Source: a virus. Taken from it: 20,479 nt of DNA. The stretch is taken from positions 1 to 20,479 of the IMG/VR virus record IMGVR_UViG_3300020810_001723, one strand, 5' to 3'. The position numbers and the translations under genes were made by a program. Shown here piece by piece: positions 635-9,861 of this stretch. Position 1 is the first letter of the stretch. Every line of letters begins with the position of its first letter. The notes under the pieces are model-generated. The model ran no database searches and was not told where the DNA came from. It saw nothing but the letters and a program-made list of their open reading frames with translations.

Positions 635-732
635 GCTGCTTAAATTGTCATCAAGAATGTGAAGAAAATTTCTGTTCTACTGAATGCGAAGAAGAATTTG
701 AACGTTTGAACTCGGGAGTATTAGAAGAATGA
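631..732 (+). CDS. 33-aa four-cysteine (putative zinc-binding) microprotein
   Basis: This very short ORF starts with the ATG at 631 inside the ATGA overlap with the upstream fibre gene. It ends in a TGA at 730-732 that itself overlaps the ATG of the next gene as ATGA. Both junctions are typical of translationally coupled phage genes, which argues that it is real despite its length. The protein has cysteines at residues 3, 6, 15 and 19 (CLNC and CSTEC spacing), followed by an acidic helix-like tail. Two close Cys pairs 9-12 residues apart, the second followed by a helix, look like a small treble-clef or zinc-ribbon knuckle of the kind seen in tiny DUF2116-like proteins. Zinc binding is inferred, not shown. 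Function is unknown; a folding or assembly role for the neighbouring adhesins is only a guess. Confidence 0.7.
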   Translation: MSCLNCHQECEENFCSTECEEEFERLNSGVLEE

Positions 733-1439
733 GTATAGGATACCCTTCAAAAATTCCTACACACTTTCTTCGGTGTTTGGTGGATGCTAAAAACCCAAAA
801 AGCTTTGAGGGGCCTACGGGTACTACTTGGTTTGATATCTCAGGGTATGGAAATAACTTTACATTAAATAGCGTGGCTTATGATACCGGAGGCTGGTTTT
901 CTTTTAATGGCTCAACCAGCACCGCCATAATGAGCCCATCAACTCCTAACAGCTTTACGTTTGATAATGCTTCCTCTACTGTTAGTGTTTGGTTTCGTCC
1001 AACATCAAATCAAGGTAATACTAACAAGGCTATTATCACCGACAATTTTGGTCCTGAAGTAGGCATCTGGTACGATGGAACAAACGTAAGATCCTATGCA
1101 TATTCAGCAACTAATTCAGTTGGGGCTACGGCTGTGAATGATTGGGTGAATGTGACAATGGTTATTCCTTATGCAGCTCAGCCAGGCGATGCAGGTAGTG
1201 GATCGACAGGCGTATACAGAGTTAGGCAATACATAAATGGAAAACTATCTGGAAGTGATACTGCTACTACAGTTGGCAACGGTATGAATGATTGGCCAAT
1301 AACATTAGGGTATGATTTTCAAAGCGGCACTCCTATAGGTTATTTTACAGGAGATATTGGATTTGTTGCTATCTGGCAAACTGCACTTAATGATGCTGAT
1401 ATTATGAAAGTATACAATACGTTGAGGGGTAGAGGTTAA
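729..1439 (+). CDS. LamG/concanavalin-like lectin-domain adhesin 1
   Basis: This 236-aa protein is a nearly bare LamG-type (Laminin_G_3-like) jelly-roll domain. Its N-terminus has the D-KNPKSFEG / TTWFDISGYGNNFTL pattern that opens such domains in phage and bacterial surface proteins. The middle holds VSVWFRP and QYINGKLSGS, equivalent to the strand and ligand-edge motifs of LamG. It ends in the FTGDIGFVAIWQTAL...VYNTLRGR pattern shared with the two downstream genes. There is no signal peptide or membrane segment, as expected for a virion protein assembled in the cytoplasm. Its start overlaps the microprotein gene (ATGA) and its stop overlaps the next gene (TAATG). Carbohydrate or host-surface binding is inferred from the fold; the ligand is unknown. 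Confidence 0.8.
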   Translation: MSIGYPSKIPTHFLRCLVDAKNPKSFEGPTGTTWFDISGYGNNFTLNSVAYDTGGWFSFNGSTSTAIMSPSTPNSFTFDNASSTVSVWFRPTSNQGNTNKAIITDNFGPEVGIWYDGTNVRSYAYSATNSVGATAVNDWVNVTMVIPYAAQPGDAGSGSTGVYRVRQYINGKLSGSDTATTVGNGMNDWPITLGYDFQSGTPIGYFTGDIGFVAIWQTALNDADIMKVYNTLRGRG

Positions 1440-2812
1440 TGGGTATTAAAAATACTATAGTTACTTCCGGACTCACTTTCATGTATGATATGGATAGTGA
1501 CAAAAGTTTTAGGGGCAAGCCCACGACAAATTATGCACATAATGCAAACCCTGAGAGATTCGGATCAAACCCACTTCAAGGAACTACTTGGTCAGCTACA
1601 GGTGACGGAACTTGGAACGTAAGACATCAAGATGCTATAAGAGTATATAGTCACGCAGGCAGCGAACTTACTTCTAAAATCAATACTGGTGTGACTGATT
1701 GGACAAACACGTATCACGGCATCTGGACCTTTGATGAAGAACTTGGATATCCCGTTGTTACGATGAGAGATATCGGCAATGGATCGTGGATGTATGCTGG
1801 ATTTGGTTTTGACGGCACTATCAATACACCCACAAAAATAGGATTAACGACCGGCGATAAGTATGTTATCTCCTGGGATCAGTGGACTACAAACACAGCC
1901 AAGTCTGCAAACTGTGGATTATACGGACAAAATTCAACAAACACAGGAAACGGTTTTCATGATGGCCTATCCAATCAGGCAGGTGCTACAGCATTTAATA
2001 CTAAAACACATACTTGGCAAAGACTATATGCTGTTTTTACGGTTAGCGCAAATAGAGGATTAAATGCTACATGGAGTCAATACAATTATGGACACTATGG
2101 TAGTAGAGGTGTCACTAAAGTGGCAAACTGGCAACTCGAAGTCGGAGATACTCCTAGTAAGTTTCTCTATTCTACGAATACAGGCGTAACGGACAGTCGT
2201 TCATCTACTGAAGCTATTGTTGACATAGCTGGCGGTCATTCAATTACTCCAACAAATCTTACATACAGCATGGATTCTACTACTTTTGCTTTTGTAAACA
2301 GCACATCACGTTTAGATGTAGCGTCCGGAGCCTTATCTACCCAGGCATCCTCTGGTATATGGACGATCGATATGTGGTTGAAGAGGAGCGCATTAAGTGC
2401 TGGTGATATTGACACGTTTTTACAAACAGGTTCAGGAAATAATTTTCTCTGGTACTTTAGACAAAGTACTGGCAATATAGAATTTGAAAATACAGGATCT
2501 TCTACATGGAGCTTTACTCCAACTACAAATGTGTACTACCATTTCTGTGCCGTAGGTTCAGGGGGAAGTATTACTGTTTACATAAATGGAGTATCTTTGG
2601 GAACGAATTCAAATACTACTACTTTTTCGATTGCCTATGCAAATGGAATTTGTATAGGACAAGAATTAGACAGCAATTTAGCTACTCCTTCTGTTGATCC
2701 TAATCAAAGATTTCAGGGTGAGATACCTTCAGTTAAGTTTTACAATCGAGCACTAAGTGTTGGAGAAGTTCAACAGAATTTTAACGCTCTTCGGAGCAGG
2801 TTCGGATATTAA
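1439..2812 (+). CDS. LamG-domain adhesin 2 with a CBM-like jelly-roll middle domain
   Basis: The protein has 457 residues and three visible parts. Residues 1-28 carry a SGLTFMYDMDSDKSFRG opening like that of the other LamG genes here. Residues about 29-250 look like a carbohydrate-binding-module-type jelly roll, starting PTTNYAHNANPERFG and closing with VANWQLEVGDTPSKFLY (about 228-244). That closing pattern ('QLE-G--PS-F') is familiar from phage adhesins. Residues about 262-457 form a C-terminal LamG domain, with WTIDMWLKRS, ITVYINGVSLGT and the ending RFQGEIPSVKFYNRAL...NALRSR. It shares a TAATG overlap with the gene before it, and its stop lies 2 bases before the next ATG. It is probably a baseplate or tail-tip adhesin; which sugar it binds cannot be told. 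Confidence 0.8.
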   Translation: MGIKNTIVTSGLTFMYDMDSDKSFRGKPTTNYAHNANPERFGSNPLQGTTWSATGDGTWNVRHQDAIRVYSHAGSELTSKINTGVTDWTNTYHGIWTFDEELGYPVVTMRDIGNGSWMYAGFGFDGTINTPTKIGLTTGDKYVISWDQWTTNTAKSANCGLYGQNSTNTGNGFHDGLSNQAGATAFNTKTHTWQRLYAVFTVSANRGLNATWSQYNYGHYGSRGVTKVANWQLEVGDTPSKFLYSTNTGVTDSRSSTEAIVDIAGGHSITPTNLTYSMDSTTFAFVNSTSRLDVASGALSTQASSGIWTIDMWLKRSALSAGDIDTFLQTGSGNNFLWYFRQSTGNIEFENTGSSTWSFTPTTNVYYHFCAVGSGGSITVYINGVSLGTNSNTTTFSIAYANGICIGQELDSNLATPSVDPNQRFQGEIPSVKFYNRALSVGEVQQNFNALRSRFGY

Positions 2813-2814
2813 TT

Positions 2815-4095
2815 ATGGGAGCTTACGCAGGAAAGAGATTGCCAGGTATAAGATCATTAAAAGTTGCTTTTGATACTAGAAATATAAAGAGTGTAGTACC
2901 TACAGGTCAACCAACCGGAGAAGATGTCGGTGGGGCTAGAGTTAAAGATATTTTAAATAGTGGTAGAACCTATACTCAGAATTTTCCGTTAACTATTCAA
3001 GGAAAGACATACTATACGTTATACGGAATAACGTATCCTGAAAGCAATTATTCGCCCGCTAATCGAGATGGAATAACACCTGGATTAAATAATATCACGG
3101 CTGGAAAGTTATATAATTGTAGTAGAGATTTAAATTATTTTGCATTTGACGAAGACACGAATACTTGGATTGCTGATAGCTATTTTAATGGGGAAAGAAG
3201 TAATGGGCATTGCTATGACACATATGATGGATTAAGTGGAGATGGTGTATCGAGCGAGCATTTAAAATTTCAACAAGATTATGATGCTATAAAAGCAACA
3301 TTTCCAAACGCAACACACATTGTGATTGGATCTCATGCAGCAGAAAACAATGACAATGATGCCGCAACTTTAAGCAGATTGAAAGAAATAGGAGTTACAG
3401 ACGCAATAGTAGGGGCAAGTAGGCCAGAGTATATAGCAGTAGGAAAAGTTAATCGACCGGAGACGCACACTTTTGTTTTTGAGAACGTAGCAGTCGAAGT
3501 AGTAAAATTAAACCTAGGATTACCTTTAGAGGATAAAACATCTGGCGGAATGATATTTTCAGGTACAGCAGAACAAAACGATATTAATATTAGTCCGTCG
3601 TTTAATCCGGTCTCAGAAGCATCCAATGACTATACACTGGAGGCGTGGGTCAAAAGAAGTACTACAGGTAGAACAGATGGAATTATCGGCGACACCCAAT
3701 ATAATTGGTTTGGCGTATATATTAACACTAGCGATAAAATAGTATTTGGTCACAAACATCAAACTCCAAGCGAAACCAGAATAGAAACAATAAGTAATGG
3801 AACAATAGCAGCTGGCGTTTGGACACATATCGTATGTACGTTTACAGAAGGAAACGGCATGAGAATATATATAAACGGAGTATTAGATAGAACAGATCTT
3901 TCGGATACTGTTGCGTTCAGTCTAGCGGGTACTAACAGAGGTGCAAGATATATTGGATCTTATTATCCGGGCGCGCCTGCAGACGGTAACGAATTTGTGG
4001 GTGAGATTGCAGTTGTAAATTGTTATAATAGCGCTTTATCTGACTCAAAAGTAAAAGAAACTTATAATTCTTCAAAAAATAGATTTAACGCATAG
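2815..4095 (+). CDS. Adhesin 3: ILEI/FAM3-like domain plus LamG domain
   Basis: This 426-aa protein opens like its neighbours (SLKVAFDTRNIKS). Residues about 85-225 resemble the ILEI/FAM3/POMGNT1-type domain (Interleukin-like EMT inducer family). In order they show GLNNITAG, then CYDTYDGLSGDG, then THIVIGSHAAENND followed by LSRLKEIGV, and finally RPEYIAVGK, matching the family order of 'vv--d--FDTY', 'ivlv-t-De', 'L--LG' and 'R-SY-liG'. Residues about 245-426 are a LamG domain with YTLEAWVKRS, GMRIYINGVLDRT and the ending EFVGEIAVVNCYNSAL. ILEI-like domains are annotated in a number of phage virion proteins, but their ligand there is not known to me. The gene follows adhesin 2 by 2 bases and is the last before the promoter at 4140. 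Confidence 0.75.
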   Translation: MGAYAGKRLPGIRSLKVAFDTRNIKSVVPTGQPTGEDVGGARVKDILNSGRTYTQNFPLTIQGKTYYTLYGITYPESNYSPANRDGITPGLNNITAGKLYNCSRDLNYFAFDEDTNTWIADSYFNGERSNGHCYDTYDGLSGDGVSSEHLKFQQDYDAIKATFPNATHIVIGSHAAENNDNDAATLSRLKEIGVTDAIVGASRPEYIAVGKVNRPETHTFVFENVAVEVVKLNLGLPLEDKTSGGMIFSGTAEQNDINISPSFNPVSEASNDYTLEAWVKRSTTGRTDGIIGDTQYNWFGVYINTSDKIVFGHKHQTPSETRIETISNGTIAAGVWTHIVCTFTEGNGMRIYINGVLDRTDLSDTVAFSLAGTNRGARYIGSYYPGAPADGNEFVGEIAVVNCYNSALSDSKVKETYNSSKNRFNA

Positions 4096-4209: not shown

Positions 4210-7008
4210 ATGGCAGATTCTGATAAAAATATAGTAATCACTCCACAAACGAGTCAAACCGCTGATCCGACTATTCAATTTAAGAGTGGGGCTACGAGCG
4301 GAGATCCGATTACTCTGACTGTGACGGACGACGGAACTACTTCAAGCTTAAGTTTTGGAGGAAGTGCCGGTCAGCTTTTCTCAATTTCAAATGATTTGAC
4401 AGGAACTATTTTTGGTGTTGCTGACGGTTCGGGTATTCCTATTATCGAAGCGGATGCTGATGGAACTATTAGGTTAGCAGAATTTGGCGGTAGTGTTCTC
4501 ATTGGGCGTGGAACTAATACGTTTATAGGAAACAATGCGGGTCTCAATAATACAACAGGTTCCAACAATATTTTCATTGGAAGCTCTGCTGGTTGTAGTA
4601 ACATAAACGGTAATAACAATAATTTCATTGGAAGCTCTGCTGGTCTTTCGAACACTTTCGGAAAGTGTAATAACTTCATAGGCTTGGCTGCTGGTATTTG
4701 TAACACGGGAGGCTATTACAACAATTATATAGGAGTCTGCGCTGGGTGGGGCGCTGAAGACGCCTTTGCTAACAATATTATAGGCAACCGAGCAGGAGTC
4801 TCTATAACCTCCGGTAGCTATAACAACATCATGGGAAGTTATGCTGGTTACTCTAACACAACAGGACGTGCCAACAACTTCATGGGATGGCAGTCTGGTT
4901 ACTGTAACACAACCGGGGCCTACAACAACTTCATTGGATACCAGGCTGGTTACTCTAATACAACGGGACAAAGTAACAACTTCATAGGATACAATGCTGG
5001 TCGCTTTAATACATCAGGAAGTAGCAACAACTTCATGGGAGACAGTGCTGGTTACTTAAATACATCAGGAAGTAGCAACAACTTCATGGGATACCAGGCT
5101 GGTCACTGTAATACAACGGGACAAAGGAACAACTTCATAGGAGACAGGGCTGGTCGCTTTAATACATTAGGAAATTACAACAACTTCATAGGATACCGGA
5201 CTGGTTACTGTAATACAACAGGACGTTCCAACAACTTCATTGGAGGTTATGTTGGTTACTGTAATACAATCGGGAAGTGCAACAACTTCATAGGAGACAG
5301 TGCTGGCTATAAAAACACAACTGGAAGTTACAACAACTTCATGGGAACTTATGTTGGCTTCGAGAACACAACCGGGGCCTACAACAACTTCATAGGATAC
5401 TGCGCTGGTCGCTATAACACAATTGGAAGTAGCAACAACTTCATAGGAAAGTATGCTGGTCGCTTTAACACAACGGGAATTAGAAACAACTTCATAGGAG
5501 AGAATGCTGGTTACTCTAACATAACTGGAAGTTGCAACTTCTTCATTGGATTCCAGGCTGGTCGCAATAACACAAGAGGAAATAGAAACAACTTCATAGG
5601 ACACCAGGCTGGTTACTGTAACATATCAGGTAGTTGGAACAACTTCATTGGAAACGAGGCTGGTTACTATAATATAACAGGAGTTTACAACAACTTCATC
5701 GGAAGCAGGACTGGTTACTGTAACACAACGGGATGTTACAACAACTTCATGGGATACGAGGCTGGTTGGGCTAATACAACGGGAAGTTACAACACCTTCA
5801 TAGGAGAGTGGGCTGGTCGCTATAACACAACAGGAAATAGAAACAACTTCATAGGAGACAGGGCTGGTTACCAAAACACAACCGGGGCCTACAACAACTT
5901 TATGGGGTCTAGGACTGGTTACCAAAACACAACGGGAGGTTACAACAACTTCATAGGATACAATGCGGGTCGCGAGAACACAACGGGAAATAGAAACAAC
6001 TTCATGGGAGACAGTGCTGGTCGCTTTAATCAAACCGGGATCTGCAACAACTTTTTCGGAAACACAACGGGTTACTCTAACATATCAGGTAGTTGGAACA
6101 ATTTCATGGGACACCAGTCTGGTTACTGTAATACATTAGGAAATTACAACAACTTCATGGGATACCGGACTGGTCTTTTAAACACAACCGGTGCCTGGAA
6201 CAACTTCATTGGATTCCAGAGTGGTTTTAGTAACACAATTGGATATCGCAACAACATGATGGGATGCAACGCTGGCTACTCGAATACAACTGGATTTAAC
6301 AACAACTTCATTGGAACCCAGGCTGGTTTTAATAACACAACAGGACGTTCCAACAACTTCATAGGAGACGTTGCGGGTTTCTGTAACATATCAGGAAGTA
6401 GCAACAACTTCATAGGAAACAGAGCTGGCGCCGCTAACACATCAGGAAGTTACAACAACTTCATGGGACAGTATACTGGTCGATGCAACACAACGGGAAG
6501 TTACAACACCTTCTACGGATTCCAGGCTGGTCGCAATAACACAACTGGTAGTAACAATCTATTTTTAGGTTGTAAGTCTGGATACCTTGCGACCCAAGGG
6601 CTAGCGAATATAACGACAGAAAGCAATCGCATTATTGTGGGAAATTGTGGTCATACTTGCGCTCAAATTCAAATTGGTTGGACAGTAGTATCTGATATAC
6701 GAGATAAGTGTATCTATAACCCAGTTCAACATGGTCGATGTTTCTTGAAAGAAGTAACTCCTATCGAGTATTCATTTAAAAATAGAGAAACAAATGAGAT
6801 AACAGATCCTGAAGGAAAGAGAAGATATGGATTTTCTGCTCAAGAAATTATTGAGATCGAAAAGAAATATGGAAATCCGGTAATCGCCAACGAAGACGAT
6901 CCCGATAAACTCAATTTAACAACTGACTATATAATACCAGTATTAGTCAATGCAGTAAACGAACTGTCTGCAGAAGTTGATCAGTTAAAATCTAAGTTAA
7001 CAAACTAA
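4210..7008 (+). CDS. Giant repeat tail fibre/spike with C-terminal S74 intramolecular chaperone
   Basis: The 932-aa protein has three parts. Residues 1-100 are a virion-attachment-like N-terminus containing GQLFSISNDLTGTIFGVAD and a DADGTIRLAEFGG block, familiar from marine phage fibres. Residues 103-799 are 41 uninterrupted 17-residue repeats of consensus NNF[I/M]G-xx-AG-xx-NTTG-xx, probably a trimeric beta-solenoid shaft. Residues 828-932 are an S74 (endosialidase-type) self-cleaving chaperone. It shows SDIRDK with Ser828-Asp829 and Lys833, then YGFSAQEI, TTDYIIPVLVNAVNEL and a terminal coiled coil. By analogy with endosialidase, cleavage would occur just before Ser828 after trimer folding. 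The ATG at 4210 follows a weak purine-rich AGAGAGAA site and lies downstream of a consensus promoter. Receptor binding is inferred from architecture. The repeats carry 20 cysteines, unusual for a fibre shaft. Confidence 0.88.
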   Translation: MADSDKNIVITPQTSQTADPTIQFKSGATSGDPITLTVTDDGTTSSLSFGGSAGQLFSISNDLTGTIFGVADGSGIPIIEADADGTIRLAEFGGSVLIGRGTNTFIGNNAGLNNTTGSNNIFIGSSAGCSNINGNNNNFIGSSAGLSNTFGKCNNFIGLAAGICNTGGYYNNYIGVCAGWGAEDAFANNIIGNRAGVSITSGSYNNIMGSYAGYSNTTGRANNFMGWQSGYCNTTGAYNNFIGYQAGYSNTTGQSNNFIGYNAGRFNTSGSSNNFMGDSAGYLNTSGSSNNFMGYQAGHCNTTGQRNNFIGDRAGRFNTLGNYNNFIGYRTGYCNTTGRSNNFIGGYVGYCNTIGKCNNFIGDSAGYKNTTGSYNNFMGTYVGFENTTGAYNNFIGYCAGRYNTIGSSNNFIGKYAGRFNTTGIRNNFIGENAGYSNITGSCNFFIGFQAGRNNTRGNRNNFIGHQAGYCNISGSWNNFIGNEAGYYNITGVYNNFIGSRTGYCNTTGCYNNFMGYEAGWANTTGSYNTFIGEWAGRYNTTGNRNNFIGDRAGYQNTTGAYNNFMGSRTGYQNTTGGYNNFIGYNAGRENTTGNRNNFMGDSAGRFNQTGICNNFFGNTTGYSNISGSWNNFMGHQSGYCNTLGNYNNFMGYRTGLLNTTGAWNNFIGFQSGFSNTIGYRNNMMGCNAGYSNTTGFNNNFIGTQAGFNNTTGRSNNFIGDVAGFCNISGSSNNFIGNRAGAANTSGSYNNFMGQYTGRCNTTGSYNTFYGFQAGRNNTTGSNNLFLGCKSGYLATQGLANITTESNRIIVGNCGHTCAQIQIGWTVVSDIRDKCIYNPVQHGRCFLKEVTPIEYSFKNRETNEITDPEGKRRYGFSAQEIIEIEKKYGNPVIANEDDPDKLNLTTDYIIPVLVNAVNELSAEVDQLKSKLTN
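4516..6606 (+). repeat. 41 tandem copies of a 51-bp coding repeat
   Basis: The array is exactly 2091 bases, 41 x 51, with no insertion or deletion. Codons for the scaffold (AACAACTTCAT-GGA, GCTGGT, AA-ACAAC-GGA) are near identical between copies, while six codons per unit vary. The first six units and the last one are the most diverged; unit 5 lacks the NTTG motif altogether. Long identical patches recur in non-adjacent units (for example 5161-5205 and 6130-6174), pointing to recombination between repeats. Confidence 0.95.
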
Positions 7009-7434: not shown

Positions 7435-8076
7435 ATGAAAAAAGTACTAATTGCGACGCCTGCTCTTGATCAAAAAGTAGACGCATACTATACTCATAGC
7501 CTCTGCGAATCAATTAAACTCGGTCTTGAGCACGAGCTAAATATAAGGGCAGTGTTCCTAGCTAATGAGAGCATTCTTCCGTTAGCTAGGAACGAGCTAC
7601 TTAAACTTGGTTATGTTGAAAACTATGACCACGTAGTTTACATTGATGCAGATGAGTCATGGAATCCTCAAGATCTTATTGATATTCTTCTGAATGAAAA
7701 AGACGTGATCTGTGTTCCTGTTGTGAATAAAAGCGATCAAACTGAGCAATATAACATCTGGTATGACGAAATAAATAAAGATAATGATGGGCTATTTCCT
7801 ATAATCAAGTGTGGTACTGGATTCTTAAAGCTATCTGCAAAAGTTGTTGCTGATCTTTATGAGTCAAGCGAAGAACTAGTCTTTAGAAACAAGCCACTCA
7901 AAAATGTATTTGAATATAGTCAAGTTGACGGGGATTTTGTGGGCGAAGACATTACTGTATGTAATAAGATAAAGGAGCTGGGCTATACGATTTGGTGTAA
8001 GCCAGGAACTGTGTATCACATCGGCAACAAAATGTACACGGGTGACTTTGTAAAACTTAATAAACTACGAGATTAA
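7435..8076 (+). CDS. GT-A fold (family 2-like) glycosyltransferase
   Basis: This 213-aa protein opens with KKVLIATPALD, the first strand of a nucleotide-sugar-binding GT-A fold. ILPLARNELLKLGY follows, then HVVYIDADESW, in which Asp71-Ala72-Asp73 is the metal-binding DxD motif. FPIIKCGTGFLKLSAKV corresponds to the acceptor-side loop, GEDITVCNKIKELGY to the catalytic-acid/helix region ('ED--f--r---G'), and TVYHIGN supplies a His that often completes metal coordination. The set is typical of soluble phage and bacterial glycosyltransferases that move a sugar from a nucleotide donor. Donor and acceptor are unknown. It begins 28 bases after the preceding stop with a GGTGA ribosome site. It lies four bases before the GT9-like gene, and together with the sulfotransferase forms a carbohydrate module. 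Confidence 0.82.
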   Translation: MKKVLIATPALDQKVDAYYTHSLCESIKLGLEHELNIRAVFLANESILPLARNELLKLGYVENYDHVVYIDADESWNPQDLIDILLNEKDVICVPVVNKSDQTEQYNIWYDEINKDNDGLFPIIKCGTGFLKLSAKVVADLYESSEELVFRNKPLKNVFEYSQVDGDFVGEDITVCNKIKELGYTIWCKPGTVYHIGNKMYTGDFVKLNKLRD

Positions 8077-8080
8077 AATT

Positions 8081-8977
8081 ATGTATAGTATATTTCATGT
8101 ACAAGGTGGAATTGGGAAACATGTTGCTTCAACTGCTGTAGCGAAAGTTATCAAGAATAATTATCCAGATCGCAAACTAATTATTGTTTGTGCGTATCCT
8201 AATATTTTTAGCAATCTTACTTTTGTTGATAGAGTATATCCTCTAGGGGAAACACAATACTTCTATCAAGAGTATATTCAGAATAAAGACTCGTTGATTT
8301 TTGCTCACGAGCCGTACTACACGACTGATCATATTCATAAGAAGCGATCTCTGATCGATAACTGGTGCAATATCTATAATCTAGATTATAATGGCGAGAT
8401 GCCGGAGTTAACATACAATCGTCTCCAAAGAAAAGGCGCTGAACAATTTTGGAAGACAGACAAGCCACTGATGGTGATTCACACTAACGGTGGTATGATG
8501 ACAACTGATGCTAAGCCATACTCTTGGACTCGTGATATGCCAGAGAAAACTGCACAAGCATTAGTTGATCACTATAAGAAAGACTATACGATTATTCAGG
8601 TAACAAAGGTTAATTCTTCAAAGCTTGAAGGCGCCCATCATCTGTTTGCTACACAGCAACAGTCATTGCCGATTCCAGACTTTTTTAGTGTGCTACTGAT
8701 GAGTAAAAGAAATATTTTGATAGACTCTTCTTTACAACATGCAGCGGCTGCTTTAAATAAGCGTTCTACTGTACTATGGAACGGCACGTCTCCCACAGTT
8801 TTTGGTTACGATTTACATACTAATATATTACCAGCAATTGATTTTAAAATCAATCTGCCGGATAGCTATTTGTTCGACTTTTCATTCGAGGGAGAAGAAG
8901 GCGAATATCCCTACGGAGAAAATGAAGATATATTCGATGTAGATAAAATTATAGAAAAAAGTATTGAGGTTGAATAA
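8081..8977 (+). CDS. GT9-like (heptosyltransferase-family) glycosyltransferase
   Basis: The 298-aa protein has the layout of GT-B family 9 enzymes (WaaC/WaaF/WaaQ type). The N-terminal lobe has HVQGGIGKHVASTAVAKVIK followed by NYPDRKLIIVCAYPNIF and FVDRVYPLG, the usual 'giGD-l---p---lk--yP' and 'vd-v' pattern. The C-terminal lobe has PLMVIHTNGG, then IDSSLQHAAAALNKRS at about 214-229, which matches the family 'DtG--HlaaAl--p' nucleotide-sugar site, followed by VLWNGTSPTVFGY. Family members add heptose or related sugars to lipopolysaccharide core; the acceptor of this phage enzyme could instead be a virion protein. The N-terminal Gly-Asp is replaced here by Gly-Lys (IGKH), so catalytic details may differ. 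Its stop overlaps the sulfotransferase start as TAATG, indicating joint expression. Confidence 0.75.
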   Translation: MYSIFHVQGGIGKHVASTAVAKVIKNNYPDRKLIIVCAYPNIFSNLTFVDRVYPLGETQYFYQEYIQNKDSLIFAHEPYYTTDHIHKKRSLIDNWCNIYNLDYNGEMPELTYNRLQRKGAEQFWKTDKPLMVIHTNGGMMTTDAKPYSWTRDMPEKTAQALVDHYKKDYTIIQVTKVNSSKLEGAHHLFATQQQSLPIPDFFSVLLMSKRNILIDSSLQHAAAALNKRSTVLWNGTSPTVFGYDLHTNILPAIDFKINLPDSYLFDFSFEGEEGEYPYGENEDIFDVDKIIEKSIEVE

Positions 8978-9861
8978 TGAATAAGACATACTATTTTATG
9001 GCTGGACTTCCCAGATCGGGAAGCTCTCTATTATCAGCTTTGCTGAATCAACATCCAGATATTTACTCAAGCCCAAACTCCCCTGTTGTTGGGTTGATGG
9101 TGGCTCTCGAAAATCAGCTATCTACTAATGAGATGTACTCCGCTAATCCTAAACTAGAGCAAGCAAAAGAAACGATTGCTAGCCCAATGTATCATTACCA
9201 CTCTGATATCGAGAAGCCAGTTATCATTGACAAGAATAGATCGTGGATGAATCGCGCACATTATATCGAAGAATACTTTAATATCGAACCAAAGATTCTT
9301 TGTCCAGTTAGAGACATTGATGAAATCCTTGCATCTTTTCTTGATATTGTTCATCGTAATCCAACTATTTCGGAAGATGGTACTATGAACTTCATTGATC
9401 AGATGTTACTTCGACAAGGATTGAAGCATACGGACCAAAATAGATGTATGATTATGGGGGATATCGAAATGGGAATTCTAGGTCAAAGTTATGAGGCGAT
9501 GAAACAGATGATAGATAACCAACAAGCGCACATGATTCATTTTATCGAATACAACGACTTAGTAAATAATACACAAGAGACGCTAGATAAAGTCTATAAG
9601 TTTCTTGGTGTCGAGTCTTTTGCAAACACTTTGTCGGATGTAAAATCCAATGAAGTACTAAACGATTCAGGTTCTTATGGGCTTGCTGATATGCACACTA
9701 TAAGAAGTGAGATATCTTCGAGAAAACTAAACCCTAAAGAAATATTGCCCGAAGAGGTTTATAAAACAGTTCAAAATATGGAATTCTGGAGATCTGTAGT
9801 TGATCGGTCAGAGAAAAGCTTTGCTAAGAAAGATCATTTCTCTAATTTCATAGGTAAATAG
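8977..9861 (+). CDS. PAPS-dependent sulfotransferase family protein
   Basis: This 294-aa protein shows the two signature sites of cytosolic and Golgi-type sulfotransferases. The 5'-phosphosulfate loop is AGLPRSGSSLL at residues 9-19. The 3'-phosphate site is CPVRDIDEILASF, with Arg112 and Ser120 spaced by eight residues as in the family. VIIDKNRSW and a late IEYNDLVNNTQETLDKVYKFLG segment also match ('YEdL---p--tl--i--FLg'). The reaction would transfer sulfate from PAPS to a hydroxyl or amine of a sugar or protein. The phage encodes no visible PAPS synthesis here and would use the host supply. It is the last gene before the hairpin at 9898. With the two glycosyltransferases just upstream it suggests building of a sulfated glycan, although the target is unknown. 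Confidence 0.85.
   Translation: MNKTYYFMAGLPRSGSSLLSALLNQHPDIYSSPNSPVVGLMVALENQLSTNEMYSANPKLEQAKETIASPMYHYHSDIEKPVIIDKNRSWMNRAHYIEEYFNIEPKILCPVRDIDEILASFLDIVHRNPTISEDGTMNFIDQMLLRQGLKHTDQNRCMIMGDIEMGILGQSYEAMKQMIDNQQAHMIHFIEYNDLVNNTQETLDKVYKFLGVESFANTLSDVKSNEVLNDSGSYGLADMHTIRSEISSRKLNPKEILPEEVYKTVQNMEFWRSVVDRSEKSFAKKDHFSNFIGK

Follow-up and report, generated by a model that had tools for sequence, protein, structure and literature searches.

The sequence analysed here, referred to as the window, is a viral DNA stretch of 20,479 nucleotides (positions 1 to 20,479 of IMG/VR record IMGVR_UViG_3300020810_001723). It contains a modular fibre gene of a marine phage that divides into an N-terminal anchor, a long array of short tandem repeats, a small cap and a C-terminal chaperone domain (Table 1). 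The three consecutive ORFs directly upstream, at 729-4095, each end in a Laminin_G_3/ConA-like lectin domain, which places the fibre gene in a host-recognition neighbourhood, and near-homologues of the first two adjoin a collagen-like fibre in the related contigs L026 and L027. These laminin-G-like lectins are equally good receptor-binding candidates. Downstream, at 7435-9861, the ORFs comprise a glycosyltransferase-like one, whose weak match to Anp1 falls under the cut-off, one of unknown function and a third that clearly encodes a sulfotransferase; they possibly serve to modify the host or phage surface. Close relatives of a 125-residue downstream ORF were looked for and none was confirmed.

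Table 1. The fibre gene and its constituent parts, with positions in the window.
Feature	Position	Strand	Basis or remark
Fibre ORF	4210-7008	+	932 residues; modular phage fibre
N-terminal anchor (residues 1-102), putative swappable plug	4210-4515	+	BLASTP against L026/L027 and L010; 47 anchor loci
Array of 41 x 17-residue repeats (residues 103-799)	4516-6606	+	TRF, unit alignment, family profile, charge profile
Cap, 28 residues (800-827), from array to predicted cleavage site	6607-6690	+	C-terminal alignment of 17-18 sequences
Peptidase_S74/intramolecular chaperone autocleavage domain (residues 828-932) and stop codon	6691-7008	+	Pfam PF13884; invariant Ser/Lys

In PHROGs the window protein matches families annotated as 'virion structural protein' and 'tail spike protein', with E-values between 8e-49 and 6e-70, and its best explanation is as a phage tail fibre or spike in which the long repeat array forms the shaft. 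PF13884 scores 20.7 bits (E 5e-4) against the full protein, under the Pfam cut-off of 22 bits, and 23.8 bits (E 5.5e-5), above that cut-off, against the C-terminal segment alone; all 18 aligned relatives match it. An alignment of 17-18 sequences spans the final repeats, the cap and the chaperone, and in the 18 sequences of the S74 alignment Ser828, the Arg at +3 and Lys833 at +5 are invariant, giving the motif S828-D-I-R831-D-K833 in the window protein. The Ser/Lys spacing matches that of S578/K583, the known catalytic dyad in MYRF, which is equivalent to residues in phage endosialidases (PMC3742443). Because these catalytic residues are conserved, cleavage is predicted to occur before S828, and the chaperone would trimerise the chain and then cut itself off at this point. 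For the C-terminal segment, the AlphaFold2 (AF2) model was too uncertain to be used (pLDDT 66, pTM 0.48). Sequence searches of the PDB with the window protein, the repeat profile and a pelagiphage homologue returned no credible relative, the C-terminus giving only a weak tail-fibre match to 8jov (E 0.019), and a nucleotide search of the fibre gene against isolate phages found no match.

The array consists of 41 consecutive units of 17 residues, in frame with the fibre ORF and free of indels, exactly as the earlier note had read it; TRF independently places 34 copies of a 51-nucleotide period at 4822-6557 (score 884). The consensus is NNF[IM]GxxAGxxNTTGxx. Residues N1, G5 and G9 are present in all 41 units, G15 in 40, N12 in 38, F3 in 37, N2 in 35 and T13 in 33, and the entropy at scaffold positions other than 14 is 0-1.3 bits, compared with 3.5, 3.1, 2.5, 3.1, 3.1 and 2.6 bits at variable positions 6, 7, 10, 11, 16 and 17 respectively. 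Position 14 is intermediate (2.2 bits, with Thr in 23 of 41 units). The earlier description of a fixed scaffold carrying six hypervariable positions therefore holds for the six themselves, although the count is slightly too tidy, given position 14. Units 5, 6 and 41 are degenerate, and related arrays include units of 16 or 18 residues; the perfect phasing of the window array is the clean end of a family and not a unique property.

Third-base choice within the array is position-specific: G5 is encoded by GGA in 37 of 41 units, G9 by GGT in 34 and N1 by AAC in 36, whereas AAC accounts for 32% of the Asn codons in the other window genes. We conclude that the units share a common ancestor and do not reflect a coincidental amino-acid preference. 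In a mutual-information test, links within the pairs 6-7, 10-11 and 16-17 were usually stronger than those between pairs, which is consistent with repeat shuffling but not decisive. As a separate observation, the codons of the array are strongly C-ending (AAC for Asn, TTC for Phe), whereas the other window genes show the opposite preference (AAT 68%, TTT 80%); the array may have been acquired from elsewhere, or the codon use of an ancestral unit may have been preserved.

Related repeats are widespread. Searching viral contigs with a degenerate nucleotide pattern of the repeat gave at least 120 matching stretches, and the loci examined contain 2,448 distinct units, throughout which variability is again greatest at these six positions. 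The 17-residue repeat belongs to a large family in aquatic phages. Among isolates it has relatives in Pelagibacter phages HTVC111P and HTVC112P, in the 'tail spike' of Prochlorococcus phage P-SSM2 and in the 'FhaB-like adhesion protein' of Methylophilales phage Venkman. These proteins, which are 26-41% identical to the window fibre, likewise contain tandem repeats of ~17 residues with an N-x-[FA]-[IVF]-G-x-x-A core, and in HTVC111P and P-SSM2 they also end in an S74 chaperone. In the pelagiphages and P-SSM2 the repeats resemble NTAIG/NNVAIG, have Ala at position 3 and follow each other less regularly; those of the window are NNFIG, with Phe, and perfectly phased. The IMG/VR records L002 and L003 have the same repeat and an S74 C-terminus 55% identical to that of the window, behind a different anchor; their arrays are only ~53% identical to the window array, of which no close allele was found. 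Pfam has no model for the repeat, the window protein and four relatives matching only at the S74 end, in collagen where present and in a cupredoxin-like stretch in P-SSM2. In a limited literature search we found no description of the 17-residue repeat or of its six variable positions.

The distribution of charge across the family is informative as to exposure. At positions 1-5, 8, 9, 12 and 15 only 0.0-0.1% of residues are charged, and at positions 13 and 14 the figure is 1.5-2.9%, compared with 7.8-25% at the six variable positions, where aromatics are also freely accepted; positions 10 and 17 have a high content of Tyr/Phe/Trp/His and of Arg. Judged by this difference from the nine scaffold positions, the six variable positions are almost certainly solvent-facing, as had been proposed. 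An AF2 model of 12 repeats as a monomer is a β-solenoid (pLDDT 84.9, pTM 0.85) in which each unit has a strand at residues 2-4 and, mostly, another at 14-16. Repeats are known to elicit from AF2 solenoids that score well yet are unrealistic (PMC11795689); subject to this caveat, the solenoid fold envisaged in the earlier note is probable. The solved chains closest to the model are mostly right-handed β-helices and tailspikes, with carbohydrate-active β-helices among the best, a likeness that we treat as generic; a Foldseek search of the PDB gave nothing under E 0.001. Structure matches in a viral library also include proteins from large viruses of protists.

Instead of recognising a specific receptor, the exposed stripes could serve another surface role: they might adhere broadly and with low affinity to polysaccharide or particles, or act as a decoy or shield that counters host outer-membrane vesicles or proteins. 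The aromatic and Arg content of positions 10 and 17 points in this direction, as do the carbohydrate-active look-alikes, albeit generic ones. By itself, however, such a role predicts neither diversifying selection nor turnover of arrays within populations, and we consider it improbable.

The array also invites comparison with the left-handed parallel β-roll heads of YadA-type trimeric autotransporter adhesins such as BpaC, which are likewise built of short glycine-anchored repeats, one layer each, and in which the exposed positions also differ between proteins (PMC9543794). YadA-like heads, however, require 14-15 residues per layer, whereas the window repeat has 17 and belongs to a phage protein with an S74 chaperone; searches of the window protein and four relatives gave no Pfam match to the YadA family up to E 1. 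YadA heads are absent from the Foldseek PDB list as well, an absence that proves nothing. The relation to the YadA rolls thus appears to be one of motif resemblance.

Comparison with phages that share the anchor shows how the array is placed in the fibre. L026 and L027 are close relatives of the window phage, with an nrdA protein 90% identical to its own and nucleotide identities of 85-86% over ~2 kb upstream and ~78-80% over the replication genes. Their anchor is 77% identical to that of the window (BLASTP over residues 1-102; 57% for L010), and behind it the shaft is collagen-like and the S74 end is of another type. In L010, which also has an S74 C-terminus, the anchor is followed by collagen-like sequence and then by repeats of the window kind, and most of the 47 loci with the same anchor have other distal modules. 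We conclude that the array is one exchangeable module among several. Since a collagen-like shaft lacking such diversity stands behind the same anchor, a plain shaft does not need it, which bears out the earlier contention that the array varies more than a passive shaft requires.

That a collagen-like shaft can fill the array slot is also in keeping with the main rival explanation, namely that the array is a passive spacer. Its six positions would then be exposed, tolerant and drifting, its repeats would turn over by unequal recombination, and receptor binding would be performed by the lectin-like neighbours or by another fibre; the presence of three ConA-like lectin ORFs upstream favours the same reading.

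A phage group comprising L102, L123, L144, L148, L161, L162, L191, L199, L277, L283 and duplicates shows conserved flanks with divergent arrays. The downstream flanks are 95-100% and the S74 domains 97-100% identical, whereas the arrays range from near-identical down to only 75-88% identity over the best aligned part, often the latter. Such divergence beside near-identical flanks and chaperone argues against a passive spacer. Within this group, L161 and L162 have identical flanks and share no exact repeat unit. L144 and L191 differ in a two-repeat block, each version of which occurs in other members of the group, as expected from recombination, and L189/L205 and others differ by whole repeats. 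In the array of L161 (L161:8651-11263) a longer block spanning several repeats is duplicated, and some of its units have 18 residues and the form NNMIG...CATVTG, an instance of multi-repeat duplication.

Repeat arrays are not always assembled reliably from metagenomes. Both L161 and L162 come from metagenome 3300025889 and start within or beside the array, and their contrast calls for caution, given the possibility of mixed haplotypes or an error of assembly. It is nevertheless very unlikely that short-read assembly through repeats created most of the population-level divergence, because the same contrast between flanks and arrays recurs between contigs from different metagenomes (for example L199/L148, L161/L199 and L144/L161), the arrays hold unique units absent elsewhere, and mis-assembly would not favour point changes at six codon positions.

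A second route to such variation would be a diversity-generating retroelement acting on the variable codons. Several of the variable codons keep a constant third base (NNC or NNT), a superficial likeness to the targets of these elements. No reverse transcriptase, however, was found in 20 related records, most of them fragments, or recognised among the window ORFs, and the substitutions are of all base types and spread over many repeats. For these reasons we regard a retroelement as extremely unlikely.

In allele comparisons of related arrays, nonsynonymous changes gather at the six variable positions. Nine of eleven allele pairs, aligned above 92% identity, were usable; L161/L162 and L102/L283 were left out of the evidence for pN exceeding pS on account of 82%-identity alignments, perhaps out of register, and a pooled ratio of 2.67 that includes these two pairs was not used. 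The pair L189/L205 was dropped, its register being shifted by an indel of two repeats, and a tally of 'independent pairs' was set aside because it counts some contigs twice. In all nine pairs pN at the variable positions exceeds pN at the scaffold positions (p<0.05 in seven), and in three of them it is also clearly above the pS of the gene. The cleanest case is L135/L195, in which the gene aligns without gaps, the changes are scattered across many repeats, and pN is 0.129 against a gene pS of 0.018 (p 2.5e-10), while all eight neighbouring ORFs have pN below pS. The ratio of pN to pS is 3.7 (p 4e-3) for L301/L308 and 3.8 (p 3e-10) for L123/L148, the latter with some repeat shuffling. The six non-significant pairs have ratios of 0.63 (L184/L192), 0.23 (L122/L203), 0.66 (L298/L306), 0.98 (L309/L333), 1.09 (L153/L169) and 1.56 (L164/L179, p 0.27), and pooling without the shuffling group gives 1.53 (bootstrap 0.87-2.55). 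Within the window array itself, the six positions have a pN of 0.603, compared with a pS of 0.478 for the whole array, and the bootstrap median of the ratio is 1.24 (range 1.09-1.52).

The excess of nonsynonymous change that the earlier note anticipated at these positions is thus general relative to the scaffold but clear relative to pS in only three of nine pairs, and we conclude that relaxed constraint explains part of the variability. Some lineages thus show diversifying selection, and in others constraint is relaxed. Six of the nine pairs, with pN near or below the gene pS, are in accord with a passive spacer; against it stand the three significant pairs and the purifying selection on the neighbours in L135/L195, since neutral drift predicts that pN equals pS and not a severalfold excess. 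We assign the passive spacer a sizeable minority of our confidence. Neither of the outcomes named in advance as telling against a selected display surface, burial of the variable positions or the same residues in related phages with only neutral drift, was found. The suggestion of immune-evasion diversity is without support for a phage fibre.

The reading that we favour, with confidence that is about evenly balanced, is that of a host-contacting shaft on which repeat turnover and, at least in some lineages, selection diversify the exposed faces of the repeats. The N-terminal anchor would plug into the virion and, after release of the chaperone, the mature fibre would retain the anchor, the stack of 41 repeats and the small cap, most of its outer surface being made up of the exposed repeat faces. 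Residues N1, F3, I4, G5, A8, G9, N12, T13 and G15 would build the solenoid, leaving the six variable positions to face the solvent. Arrays would change through duplication, deletion and recombination of repeats together with point substitution, and selection would keep or favour amino-acid changes at the exposed positions, most likely because these contact variable host surface molecules along the shaft. The array itself may bind a receptor, a point on which the earlier note goes further than the evidence.

Hypervariable host-recognition genes are already established in marine phages. Tail-fibre genes are described as varying between nearly identical phages in metaviromic islands (PMC3909814) and in a pelagimyophage host-recognition cluster (PMC7029224), with YadA-like domains reported in these modules. 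What these accounts describe is variability of whole genes or domains, and no six-position pattern inside a repeat was found in them. During laboratory evolution of cyanophage S-TIM4, populations on each of the three hosts acquired mutations in a structural protein called YadA-like, which also gained variants by recombination inside the gene (PMC6224464). S-TIM4 ORF108 was considered as a direct experimental precedent and rejected, as it is not homologous (BLASTP E 2.9) and has no such repeats; the S-TIM4 protein is a functional parallel only.

A more distant comparison is provided by the variable lymphocyte receptors of lampreys, in which a variable recognition surface is built from leucine-rich repeats. 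The array might be functionally similar, with a fixed solenoid whose exposed stripes are rewritten by recombination and diversifying selection and with no retroelement involved, a possibility that we advance only tentatively. If it is correct, near-identical phage genomes could present many different host-binding surfaces. Variation in phage fibres is usually sought at their tips, or ascribed to retroelements or to whole-gene replacement; six defined variable positions in a shaft repeat amount to a simple, testable code, in which selection can be read per position in metagenomes. Given the abundance of the repeat in aquatic viruses and its lack of a Pfam model, its description would also aid the annotation of proteins now 'hypothetical' or misnamed.

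Two further observations concern fibre genes in related phages. In L002 and L003, two neighbouring genes each contain an array of 17-residue repeats; over ~1.3 kb these arrays share 78% nucleotide identity, likely the result of a tandem duplication of the fibre gene. The fibre slots of L026 (L026:14128-15777) and L027 (L027:14128-15597) differ in the number of collagen-like repeats, giving proteins of 550 and 490 residues, whereas almost all other compared genes of the two are identical; shaft length thus varies here too.
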